Part shown: in pieces, positions 6,817-38,929 of the stretch | How positions within the stretch are numbered: position 1 is the first letter of the stretch | Layout: every line of letters starts with the position of its first letter | NCBI RefSeq assembly: GCF_016019955.1 | Contig: NZ_JAECRZ010000001.1 | Coordinates: forward strand, 1-64,000 | DNA: 64,000 nucleotides | Direction: 5' to 3' | From: Thiosulfatihalobacter marinus | GTDB lineage: Bacteria > Pseudomonadota > Alphaproteobacteria > Rhodobacterales > Rhodobacteraceae | Position numbers and translations under genes: made by a program | Notes under the pieces: generated by a model | What the model saw: only the letters and a program-made list of their open reading frames with translations | What the model was told of the DNA's origin: nothing | Database searches by the model: none

Positions 6817-6841
6817 TTGAGTATTTTCGGAACAATGAAAG
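6817..6841 (+). repeat. Dispersed intergenic repeat, solo arm
   Basis: TTGAGTATTT, a short variable spacer, then GAACAATGAAAG. It matches the right arm of the palindromic element at 17989-18069 at 23 of 25 positions. Related copies lie at 15145-15167 and 37857-37879. Confidence 0.7.
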
Positions 6842-15117: not shown

Positions 15118-15167
15118 CCGGGGGGCCAGCCCCCCGGACCCCCCGGAGTATTTGGGGCAAAATGAAG
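15118..15167 (+). repeat. Composite hairpin plus dispersed repeat
   Basis: A 9-bp GC-only inverted repeat (15118-15126/15129-15137) is followed by GGAGTATTTGGGGCAAAATG and AAG (15145-15167). The same two-part layout recurs at 37831-37879. It sits between two genes of the pyrimidine operon and may act as an mRNA-stabilising or partly terminating element. Confidence 0.6.
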
Positions 15168-17095: not shown

Positions 17096-17878
17096 ATGAG
17101 CGACGCACCTGTCATCGAAGCCAAGAACCTGAGCCTGACCTTCCAGACGAATGACGGCCCGGTCCATGCGCTCAAGGATGTGAACCTTGAGATCAACAAG
17201 GGCGATTTCGTAAGCTTCATCGGCCCGTCCGGCTGTGGCAAAACCACTTTCCTGCGGGTGATTGCCGACCTGGAGCACCCAACCGCCGGTGAGATCACGG
17301 TGAACGGGATGAGCGCGCAGGAGGCGCGGCGCGCGCGGGCCTATGGGTATGTGTTCCAGCACGCAGGGCTGTATCCCTGGCGCACGATCGGCGGCAATAT
17401 CCGCCTGCCGCTGGAGATCATGGGGGTGAACAAGGCCGAACAGGACGAAGCGGTGCGCGAGGTGCTGGACCTGGTGCATCTGGACGGTTTCGAAAAGAAA
17501 TACCCCTGGCAATTGTCCGGCGGGATGCAGCAGCGCGCGAGCATCGCGCGCGCCCTGGCGTTCCACGCCGACATCCTGTTGATGGACGAGCCGTTCGGCG
17601 CTCTGGACGAGATCGTGCGCGATCACCTGAACGAACAGCTTCTCGACTTGTGGGCGCGCACCAACAAGACCATCGGCTTTGTCACCCATTCGATCCCGGA
17701 GGCGGTATATCTGAGTACCAAGATCGTGGTGATGTCGCCCCGGCCGGGACGGATAACGGATGTGATCGACAGCCCGCTGCCAAAGGAGAGGCCGCTGGAT
17801 ATCCGTGACAGCAAGGAATTCATCGAAATCGCGCACCGGGTGCGCGACGGATTGCGCGCGGGGCACGAAGATGATTGA
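17096..17878 (+). CDS. ABC importer ATPase (NMT1/nitrate-taurine class), likely pyrimidine uptake
   Basis: 260 aa with all ATPase motifs: Walker A GPSGCGKTT, Q-loop VFQHAGLYPWRT, signature LSGGMQQRASIARAL, Walker B ILLMDEPFGALDE, and the switch His in FVTHSIPEA. The Q-loop ending in LYPW and the C-terminal RPGRI motif are typical of the SsuB/TauB/ThiZ group. The start MSDAPVIEAK was chosen since family members begin close to the first beta strand. Partners are the two permeases and the NMT1-type binding protein downstream. Co-expression with pyrimidine catabolism suggests a pyrimidine-related substrate (inference). Confidence 0.9.
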   Translation: MSDAPVIEAKNLSLTFQTNDGPVHALKDVNLEINKGDFVSFIGPSGCGKTTFLRVIADLEHPTAGEITVNGMSAQEARRARAYGYVFQHAGLYPWRTIGGNIRLPLEIMGVNKAEQDEAVREVLDLVHLDGFEKKYPWQLSGGMQQRASIARALAFHADILLMDEPFGALDEIVRDHLNEQLLDLWARTNKTIGFVTHSIPEAVYLSTKIVVMSPRPGRITDVIDSPLPKERPLDIRDSKEFIEIAHRVRDGLRAGHEDD

Positions 17879-17988
17879 CATCCCGCCCCCGCAACGCCGC
17901 CTTGCCCCTTTTGGGGAAGCAAAGCCTTTCACCGTTCACGGCCATCGGCTCTCCAGCCTGTACCGCGTGATCAGGAAACCACCAATTC

Positions 17989-18069
17989 CTTTCATTGTTC
18001 TTAAAATACTCAACAATTCCGCCCGTGAGACCGGGCGTGCCGTTTTGAGTATTTGTGGAACAATGAAAG
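17989..18069. repeat. 81-base palindromic intergenic element
   Basis: Two 25-base arms in inverted orientation (17989-18013 and 18045-18069), each reading TTGAGTATTT, three variable bases, GAACAATGAAAG, flank a 31-base centre containing the stem CGCCCG (18020-18025)/CGGGCG (18032-18037). Single arms of the same repeat lie at 6817, 15145 and 37857. The structure resembles a BIME/REP doublet. It lies inside an operon between the ATPase and permease genes. Confidence 0.75.
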
Positions 18070-18100
18070 CAGCTTTGGTCATGGGTACGGAGGTTGTGGC

Positions 18101-18985
18101 ATGAGCGCGCTTTGGTATCGTGTCGGGCCGGTGATCACGGTTGTGATCGCCATTTTTGTGCTTTGGTATGCCGGGGCGGTGGCGTTGAATTCGGCCTGGG
18201 CCTATGACAAGGCCAAGCGCGCCGGGGTGGAGCTGAGCACATCCGAGCTGATTGCCGACACGTTGAGCCAGGACAAGCCCAAGCTGCCGGCGCCCCACCA
18301 GGTGGGGCGTGAGATATGGAAGACGACCGGCGGGATGGTGGCCTCGGGGCGGGCGTTTTCCAAGCGTTCGCTGATCTATCACAGCTGGATCACGCTGAGT
18401 TCGACCTTGCTGGGGTTCGTGATGGGCACGGCGCTGGGCATCGGGCTGGCGGTGGGGATCGTTTACAACCGGACCATGGACATGAGCGTGATGCCCTGGG
18501 TGATCGCCAGCCAGACCATTCCGATCCTGGCGATTGCGCCGATGATCATCGTGGTGTTGAACGCGATCGGCATATCCGGGCTTTTGCCCAAGGCGGTGAT
18601 TTCCATGTATCTGTCGTTCTTCCCGGTGGTTGTCGGCATGGTCAAGGGGCTGCGCAGCCCCGGGCGGATGCAGCTGGACCAGATGAAGACCTGGAACGCC
18701 AGCGGGGGGCAGGAGTTCCGGAAGCTGCGGTTGCCGAGCTCGATGCCGTATCTGTTCACCTCGCTCAAGGTGGCGATGGCAGCGTCGCTGGTGGGGGCGA
18801 TCGTGGGTGAGTTGCCCACGGGCGCCGTGGCGGGCCTTGGCGCGCGGCTTCTGGCGGGGAGTTATTACGGGCAGACGATCCAGATATGGAGCGCGCTGAT
18901 CACGGCGGCGGCCCTGGCGGCCAGTCTTGTGGGGCTTATCGGGTTTGTGCAGAAGGCGGTTCTCAAGCGGATGGGGATGGCGTGA
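18101..18985 (+). CDS. ABC transporter permease, first subunit
   Basis: 294 aa, BPD_transp_1 type. A membrane helix near the N-terminus (VGPVITVVIAIFVLWYAGAVAL) is followed by a hydrophilic stretch of about 50 residues, then the core permease helices with the EAA-like loop region (WNASGGQEFRKLRLPSSMPYLF). Start MSALWYRV. Its stop shares one base with the start of the second permease, so translation is coupled. It forms the membrane channel of the importer with the ATPase at 17096. Confidence 0.88.
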   Translation: MSALWYRVGPVITVVIAIFVLWYAGAVALNSAWAYDKAKRAGVELSTSELIADTLSQDKPKLPAPHQVGREIWKTTGGMVASGRAFSKRSLIYHSWITLSSTLLGFVMGTALGIGLAVGIVYNRTMDMSVMPWVIASQTIPILAIAPMIIVVLNAIGISGLLPKAVISMYLSFFPVVVGMVKGLRSPGRMQLDQMKTWNASGGQEFRKLRLPSSMPYLFTSLKVAMAASLVGAIVGELPTGAVAGLGARLLAGSYYGQTIQIWSALITAAALAASLVGLIGFVQKAVLKRMGMA

Positions 18986-37830: not shown

Positions 37831-37879
37831 CGAGGGGCCAGCCCCTCGCGCTCCCCGGAGTATTTTTGGAACAATGAAG
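37831..37879 (+). repeat. Composite hairpin plus dispersed repeat
   Basis: CGAGGGGC (37831-37838)/GCCCCTCG (37841-37848), then GGAGTATTTTTGGAACAATG and AAG (37857-37879). Same two-part layout as 15118-15167. The ATG inside the repeat is used as the start of the next gene. Confidence 0.65.
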
Positions 37880-38929
37880 ATGGACGTTCAGAGCCAGAAC
37901 AAAGAGTTGATCGCACCCGTTCGGGCGGCGATGTATGATTTTGACCTGGGGGCGCTGAAGGCGTTGCTGGGAGCGGTTTCGGCGCCCGACGCGGTGTTTC
38001 ATCTGTGTTTTCCGTTCGGGGACACGGTGGGGGCCGAAGCGTTTTGCGATCATGCCTATGGCGGATTGCTGGACGCCTGGCCGGACCTGGAGCGGCGCGA
38101 CTATATCGTGATGGCGGGGCCGGATGAGGATGGGGCCGAATGGGTTGGCTGTGGCGGCTATTATACCGGCACGTTCGAGGCGCCGTGGCTGGATATTCCA
38201 CCGACGGGCCATCAGACGCATATGCGGTTTCACGAGTTCTTCCGCATCGAGGATGGCAGGATCGCGGAGTTTCAGGCGTTGTGGGACATTCCCGAGGTGA
38301 TGCTTCAGGCCAATGCCTGGCCGCTGGCGCCGTCGCTGGGCCGGGAATGGCATGTGCCGGGGCCGGCCACCTGTGACGGGATCGTGCCGGGGCCCTATGA
38401 CATGCGAAAAGGGACGGCATCGCGTCAGCATATCATCGACATGCTGGAGCATATGAAGCGCCACCCGTCGCGGGGGGGGCCGGAAGTCATGGAGATGGAC
38501 CGGTTCTGGCATGACACGATGAGCTGGTACGGTCCGTCGGGCATCGGTACGGGGCGTGGCATTCGCGGATTTCGCAACTGGCACCAGATTCCGTTTTTGA
38601 ACGGGATGCCGGATCGCGGGAAATACGTGGACGAGATCGATTATCATTTTTTCGGGGATGGCGATTATGCCGCCGTGACGGGCTGGCCGGACATGATCCA
38701 GACCGTGACCCACGGTGGATGGATGGGCATTGCGCCTTCGGGCAGGAAGATCACCATGCGCAGCCTTGATTTCTGGCGCATCGAAAACGGCAGGATTCGC
38801 GAGAACTGGGTGCTTGTCGATCTGTTGGATGCCTATGACCAGTTGGGCGTGGACGTGTTTGCCCGCTTGCGCGAGTTCAACAAGGTCCGCAACATGGGCC
38901 GACTGAAGATACCGGATGGAATGAGTTGA
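37874..38929 (+). CDS. Two-domain SnoaL/NTF2-like protein
   Basis: 351 aa. Domain 1 (about 10-160) has PWLDIPPTGHQTHMRFHEFFRIEDGRIAEF; domain 2 (about 195-335) has SWYGPSGIGTGRGI, GWPDM, GGWMGIAPSGRKI, LDFWRIENGRIRENWVLVDLL and LGVDVFARL. Both domains align with the 29974 protein, so the pair arose by gene duplication after domain doubling. The start lies inside the dispersed repeat (ATGAAGATGG; the second ATG at 37880 is possible). The stop shares one base with the SDR start. Confidence 0.8.
   Translation: MKMDVQSQNKELIAPVRAAMYDFDLGALKALLGAVSAPDAVFHLCFPFGDTVGAEAFCDHAYGGLLDAWPDLERRDYIVMAGPDEDGAEWVGCGGYYTGTFEAPWLDIPPTGHQTHMRFHEFFRIEDGRIAEFQALWDIPEVMLQANAWPLAPSLGREWHVPGPATCDGIVPGPYDMRKGTASRQHIIDMLEHMKRHPSRGGPEVMEMDRFWHDTMSWYGPSGIGTGRGIRGFRNWHQIPFLNGMPDRGKYVDEIDYHFFGDGDYAAVTGWPDMIQTVTHGGWMGIAPSGRKITMRSLDFWRIENGRIRENWVLVDLLDAYDQLGVDVFARLREFNKVRNMGRLKIPDGMS

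Follow-up and report, generated by a model that had tools for sequence, protein, structure and literature searches.

The window analysed here, a 64,000-nt stretch of the Thiosulfatihalobacter marinus genome (contig NZ_JAECRZ010000001.1, positions 1 to 64,000), contains at 17989-18069 an 81-bp palindrome formed by the two arms of an AACA-type non-coding master locus (17899-18069). Its arms belong to a genome-wide repeat with the consensus GRR-TATTT-NN-tail, and the locus carries a guide in two parts, a hairpin loop fitting the head and an 11-nt stretch fitting the tail of scattered copies. Repeat families, masters and the two-part match between them are established computationally. An earlier description of the window from its letters alone (the sequence-only reading) had compared the palindrome to repetitive extragenic palindromic (REP) sequences and bacterial interspersed mosaic elements (BIME), and the guide-bearing non-coding locus goes beyond that description. 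We favour, at somewhat less than even odds (about 45%), an RNA-addressed REP-like system, in which a master RNA would direct a protein to the scattered copies for their dispersal or upkeep.

Results

The master locus was delimited by its core, guide, arms, stem A and predicted fold, and its putative RNA would run from 18069 to 17899 on the minus strand. Inverted-repeat, shuffle and genome pattern searches located both arms exactly where the sequence-only reading had put them, each 25 nt long, 88% complementary and 31 nt apart. The arm at 18045-18069 lies on the plus strand with the head GAG-TATTT and the tail AACAATGAAAG, and that at 17989-18013 lies on the minus strand with the same tail. The small GC hairpin described between them is present at 18020-18037 and is paired in the predicted fold. 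Hairpin B (17937-17967, minus strand), recognised by the core, loop-head and covariation tests, includes the constant core (17940-17964) and a loop at 17951-17954 (CTCC on the plus and GGAG on the minus strand) that fits the GAG head of the arms. It is followed by the 11-nt guide (17926-17936), which reads AACGGTGAAAG on the minus strand when compared with the arm tail AACAATGAAAG, and by stem A (17899-17925, minus strand), which adjoins the guide and is assigned from the predicted fold and from a comparison in which the masters' stem beats the swapped stem. In a typical master the order is arm, stem A, the 11-nt tail-like stretch, core hairpin B and an oppositely directed arm.

A 214-nt query over the palindrome region matched 23 of 25 genomes of the genus, chiefly through query letters 43-87. 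An order-wide sample of 390 genomes contains the constant core, GGNCANCGGCNNYCCNGCCTGTNCC, in 290, with one match noted in the reversed control; a sample of 385 from the class contains it in 8, 3 of which lie in the window's own family. Judging by named records, the order is Rhodobacterales. By the core pattern, the genome of the window (G000) has three masters. Genomes with at least 10 scattered copies make up 120 of the 290 with the core as against 13 of the 100 without it. We set aside the idea that the core codes for protein, because the letters closing the loop, open in the search pattern, pair with each other and none of the 116 masters with flanks has its core inside a called gene. All gene calls come from our own simple gene finder, which was checked for plausibility alone (60 genes in the 64-kb window).

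Among 13 loci read from outside the usual labels (two identical pairs included), one, L413, from a genome of 42% GC, shows the full arrangement including the T>C difference of the guide; the others are partial or unclear. One whole master compared with plasmids gave partial matches alone, and the three inspected were a 3' module or an arm with no core. A phage origin was considered and rejected, as one element gave short, weak matches to phage records, with no phage of this order among the 20 of 23 matches listed. The core pattern did match three viral contigs (L404, L403 and L405). The first has the usual right arm and the last shows no arms by eye; in L403, a contig with ankyrin-like frames, the core (2508-2532) lies between inverted repeats of about 27 nt that are unlike the usual arms. 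As a separate observation, 91 of 150 masters have the word GTTAA in the 45 nt that follow the core, compared with 3.8 in shuffles, its TTAA mostly 25-26 nt after the core. The word could be a protein site or part of a promoter.

Scattered copies were sought with the pattern GAGTATTTN{5,10}ANGAA, which gave 115 matches in the whole 4.16-Mb genome and 3 in the reversed control. Further copies, the lack of which would have left chance similarity as the explanation in the sequence-only reading, thus exist genome-wide. Within the window, matches to the arm with up to 3 mismatches number 3, as against 0 in 100 shuffles, and these low shuffle and reversed-control counts exclude likeness by chance. 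Of the 115 matches, 99 were read with their flanks, the arms of masters included, and they fall into the tail families CAAAATGAA (62 copies), AACAATGAA (34) and CAAGATGAA (3). None of the 99 lies inside a called gene, and 95 are faced by the 3' end of a gene, the copies sitting close behind stop codons. Tandem gaps hold 40 sense and 27 antisense copies, convergent gaps 28 and divergent gaps 4. The proposed likeness to REP and BIME elements therefore stands as far as short, hairpin-forming intergenic repeats at gene 3' ends, in about 100 copies and with some inverted pairs, are concerned, whereas the mobilising enzyme suggested with it found no support (see below). For the single copies, RNA-level punctuation, the other role proposed in the sequence-only reading, would be conceivable.

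In front of the head, single copies carry a 5' module that varies in kind. It may consist of GGGGGCGCTGCCCCC followed by a second variable hairpin and a C-run, of GCCTCCGGC, of one hairpin with a C-run, or of a stretch rich in T. The G-run and both C-runs are equally long in 35 of 42 parsable copies of this genome (shuffle mean 17.5, maximum 26), as though either C-run were available to pair with the G-run. An order-wide search for tails, in which the head was fixed by the pattern itself, matched 287 of the 390 genomes, and the tails listed vary between genomes. Eight plasmid matches that were read contain the same kind of element, namely in Ruegeria (degenerate), Leisingera, Salipiger, Paracoccus (two), Roseinatronobacter, Antarctobacter and Sagittula.

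The correspondence between masters and copies was evaluated with guide, loop and pairing tests; the guide tests drew solely on letters that the search pattern did not fix or that lay outside it. The guide set comprises 167 masters, of which 150 remain at less than 75% identity. Across the 167, the guide agrees with the tail of its own right arm at a mean of 8.77 of 11 letters, compared with 6.97 for swapped partners and 7.12 for the largest of 200 shuffle means. One fixed guide position is mismatched in 105 of the 146 masters having at least 8 matches, and 101 of these 105 differ by a T in the arm and a C in the guide. On the core strand, the loop of hairpin B complements the head that precedes TATTT, the partners being CTCC with GAG, TCCC with GGA and CCCC with GGG. 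Head letters 2-4 are those expected from the loop in 113 of the 117 right and 101 of the 105 left arms that could be scored, with full four-letter agreement in 62 right and 64 left arms; for letters 3-4 of the right-arm head, 10000 shuffles gave a mean of 47.8 and a maximum of 68 of 117.

The match extends to copies outside the masters. In 13 of 14 genomes with tails listed by the order-wide search, the scattered tails fit the genome's own guides better than the average of other genomes' guides, and 0 of 20000 permutations did as well, in a test that treats all genomes as independent although some share a genus. The third master of G000, near C22:274682, names the tail CCAAAAGAAG, which the earlier pattern could not see. 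The prediction made from it held: TATTT-N2-5-CCAAAAGAA has 67 matches in the genome and 0 in the control, 2 of them being that master's own arms and 65 lying outside it, and 14 of the 67 form seven close inverted pairs. All ten copies of this family that were read carry the GGA head that the TCCC loop of the master requires. Likewise, in 400 kb of G196, which of the relatives gave the best DNA match, the tails named by its three masters stand behind TATTT 6, 7 and 3 times and eight other tails 0 times; with the TTTAT control, one tail had 1 match and the others had 0. One of the three tails named in G196 is common to G000.

Relatives also bear on change in the elements over time. The gap in which the palindrome lies, 222 nt long in the window, is bounded by genes for an ATP-binding cassette (ABC) ATPase (17096-17878) and for a permease (18101-18985); in G196 it is 6 nt long. 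G395 has a master with the same tail in this gap, as does seemingly, by eye, G178 from another genus, and the site holds 9 of the 116 masters with flanks. Fourteen orthologous gaps were examined in both G000 and G196; the latter has an element in 3 by its exact tails, in 4 more by eye (the 15145 site, L083, L085 and L135) and none in 7. At L085 both flanks align and the tail alone differs; L122 and L135 are similar with looser flanks. Behind the hydrolase gene at the 15145 site, 18 of the 23 genus genomes read have an element, degenerate in some species and with tails that vary from species to species; in the other 5, whose long gaps were printed in part, none was noticed. Two further features of the ATPase-permease gap were observed: in Roseinatronobacter sp. 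S2 (L144, NZ_CP121115.1, 2501-2564) it holds an antisense element of the scattered type with a different 5' module, and in relatives where it measures 411 or 423 nt (L151, L152, L154, L155, L174 and L176) it shows, by eye, an apparent acetyltransferase-type frame.

Evidence on the strand comes from hairpin B and stem A. The outer pair of hairpin B, read on the core strand of the 150 masters, is G-C in 76, A-T in 30, C-G in 1, A-C in 42 and G-T in 1, so that 107 are Watson-Crick (shuffle mean 75.5, maximum 91). The 42 A-C pairs become G.U wobbles solely on the strand opposite the core, and one pair goes the other way. The pair next inward is near-invariant (C-G in 149), and the inner variable pair, in 167 masters, is T-A in 86, G-C in 76, A-T in 3 and T-G in 2. 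Among the non-Watson-Crick pairs of stem A, 96 are A.C and 18 G.T, compared with 33 and 23 per swapped set. Relative to shuffles of the same composition, the strand opposite the core folds better (mean z -3.2 versus -2.2; 60 of the 150 masters were tried, and this strand was the better one in 51), and the predicted RNA fold of 17895-18072 on the minus strand has a z of -5.6. Compensatory changes and strand-specific G.U pairs, the marks by which we judged a structured RNA, are thus both present. The one-sided wobbles and the conserved pairs are what a transcribed RNA of the tail-sense strand, in the window the minus strand, would show; from this pairing evidence we infer that such an RNA is made. 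Against Rfam 15, the window gave a tRNA as its sole match, eight loci at E<=1 gave a single match with E 0.31, far under gathering, and seven loci at E<=0.5 gave none.

A strand-specific RNA structure would also be expected of a trans-acting small RNA (sRNA) that is expressed from the master and pairs with anti-tail stretches in the 3' untranslated regions (UTRs) of mRNAs, the elements being its targets without any mobility. The position of the elements close behind stop codons and the one site kept in 18 of 23 genomes point the same way. Yet the elements occur in both orientations, and for 55 of the 99 copies the anti-tail strand would fall in the 3' UTR of the downstream gene. Nor would such an sRNA account for the inverted copies of its target on either side of the RNA locus or for the empty site in the nearest relative, and we regard it as unlikely.

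The core between inverted arms, the difference in gap length (222 nt in G000, 6 nt in G196) and the element-free state in G196 of half of the 14 orthologous gaps are what one would expect of a non-autonomous DNA element resembling a miniature inverted-repeat transposable element (MITE). Its arms would then be terminal repeats, the guide a subterminal repeat and the single copies solo ends, all held uniform by recombination and by a transposase provided in trans. The fit of loop and head and the wobble pairs on one strand indicate RNA pairing instead, and at L085 the tail alone differs, between aligned flanks; we consider this explanation rather improbable.

The sequence-only reading had also raised mobilisation by a RAYT-like enzyme (REP-associated tyrosine transposase). 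A profile search for Y1_Tnp (PF01797) gave 0 matches in G000, whose assembly is 99.8% complete, and among 13 genus genomes, G000 included, 4 matched, 3 of them above the cut-off, and 9 had none. A strictly RAYT-driven REP/BIME system is thus very improbable despite the copy number, extragenic position, hairpins and inverted pairs, since G000 and the eight other genomes lack the enzyme's profile match, the heads before TATTT are GAG or GGA rather than GTAG/GTGG and the arm-flanked locus is non-coding. A reverse transcriptase (RVT_1) had 0 matches in G000 and is present in 9 of the 25 genus genomes; rewriting of the repeats by such an enzyme was rejected for lack of a match in G000.

Among the top matches of a literature search that left most subscription journals and bioRxiv uncovered, including the portions available of PMC8632094, PMC2817692 and PMC5107571, no repeat-guide system is described, and a description elsewhere is possible. 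Searching that literature for the core and tail strings gave one unrelated match, an aptamer paper. In its available portion, PMC8632094 gives two Rhodobacterales motifs, one between cco operons and one upstream of cysS, both at places other than those of the present elements.

Three single copies, all on the plus strand, complete the window. The copy at 6817-6841 (AACA family; pattern and shuffle searches) differs from the 18045 arm in 2 of 25 letters. Those at 15118-15167 (CAAA family) and 37831-37879 (AACA family), found by the genome pattern search and in the sequence, have a GC hairpin and a C-run in front. Their arms at 15145-15167 and 37857-37879 both contain ATGAA and are preceded by the GC-only hairpins, as the sequence-only reading had it. 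The tail of the 15145 arm is CAAAATGAAG and that of the other window arms AACAATGAA, and the window arms therefore represent two tail families. The copy at 37831-37879 overlaps a possible gene start. Its ATG at 37874 had been taken as the start of a gene, and our gene finder chose it too (37874-38929), but the start is uncertain because a second in-frame ATG follows 6 nt later, at 37880. In Thalassococcus sp. S3 (L408, NZ_CP022304.1, 1502-1673), a 172-nt gap between bchZ and bchY holds an arm-like stretch and a GGGGGTG hairpin module.

Discussion

The genome keeps a few non-coding masters, three in this case, together with many REP-like copies near gene ends. Each master matches one scattered family, its loop fitting the head and its 11-nt guide the tail. 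In the RNA-addressed system that we favour, the master RNA could pair with the anti-tail strand of the copies through the guide, including a fixed G.U pair, and through the GGRR loop, and would thereby bring a protein encoded elsewhere to the copies. The most likely purpose would be dispersal or upkeep of the elements, with the address held in a non-coding RNA and not in a RAYT protein. Action in trans and a role in dispersal or upkeep are suggested because the scattered copies follow the guides in both tail and head. A stronger version, in which GGRR loop, 11-nt guide and a putative protein place or rewrite the tails of dozens of gene-end elements, appears doubtful at present.

Several observations weigh against the RNA-addressed system. 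In the distribution, 13 genomes carry at least 10 copies and yet no core by the strict pattern, and the usual left arm is missing from all 9 masters at the ATPase-permease site, that of the window included. In the structure, two farther-out pairs of hairpin B show no covariation (Watson-Crick in 46 and 52, where shuffles average 50.2 and 49.9), and the inner pair is T-G in 2 masters, which speaks for the other strand. The gene upstream shares the core strand at 51 of the 63 distinct sites, so that the putative RNA would be antisense to it, and no promoter was identified. Copies in tandem gaps occur in both orientations (40 and 27), and searches for a RAYT-type transposase and RVT_1 found no partner enzyme. 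The tail-guide test fails in G324 (own 4.6, others 5.64), and the fit is weak in G365, G118 and G030. G196 also has CAAGATGAA tails, one letter from its CAAAATGAA guide family, and at the 15145 site 9 of 18 tails fit, by eye, a guide found in the same genome. Finally, gene conversion within the locus could keep guide and arms alike without action in trans.

Where the upkeep of REP-like repeats has been explained, a protein recognises a hairpin. Here, the address of each family is apparently written a second time in a non-coding locus, in the loop for the head and in the guide for the tail. If the masters act in trans, this would be a nucleic-acid-guided, genome-wide repeat system across a large bacterial order; if they act in cis alone, they would still represent an undescribed structured RNA family, its core present in 290 of the 390 order genomes sampled. 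Were repeat writing true, the genome-wide set of repeats would follow what a few guide loci say.

Of the known systems, REP/BIME elements with their RAYT are similar in being short extragenic hairpin repeats in many copies, with inverted pairs, several families per genome and a flanked master; according to the available part of PMC2817692, each REP family has a master locus between inverted copies. The RAYT master, however, codes for a transposase, whereas the present masters are non-coding (no core in a called gene among the 116). The present address is a two-part sequence match, with no Y1 transposase found in G000, and the REP head GTAG/GTGG differs from GRR-TATTT, with GAG or GGA in the copies read.

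DNA uptake sequence dialects of the Neisseriaceae combine a constant with a lineage-specific part and occur as single copies and inverted pairs, all of which the present elements share. Uptake sequences also occur inside genes, in contrast to the present copies (0 of 99), and are not known to have a counterpart to the non-coding guide loci that match the tail families here. The bridge RNA or seekRNA of IS110-type elements is a non-coding RNA beside the element ends, two guide segments of which match a split target, and a two-segment guide beside element ends is common to both. The masters read here, known from sequence alone, differ in having no transposase gene and a different hairpin architecture. 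RUP, BOX and Correia elements are small MITE-like repeats whose modular, intergenic, hairpin-forming and non-coding nature is shared as well; unlike in these, guide and loop of the present masters match scattered copies, and wobble pairs are found on one strand only.
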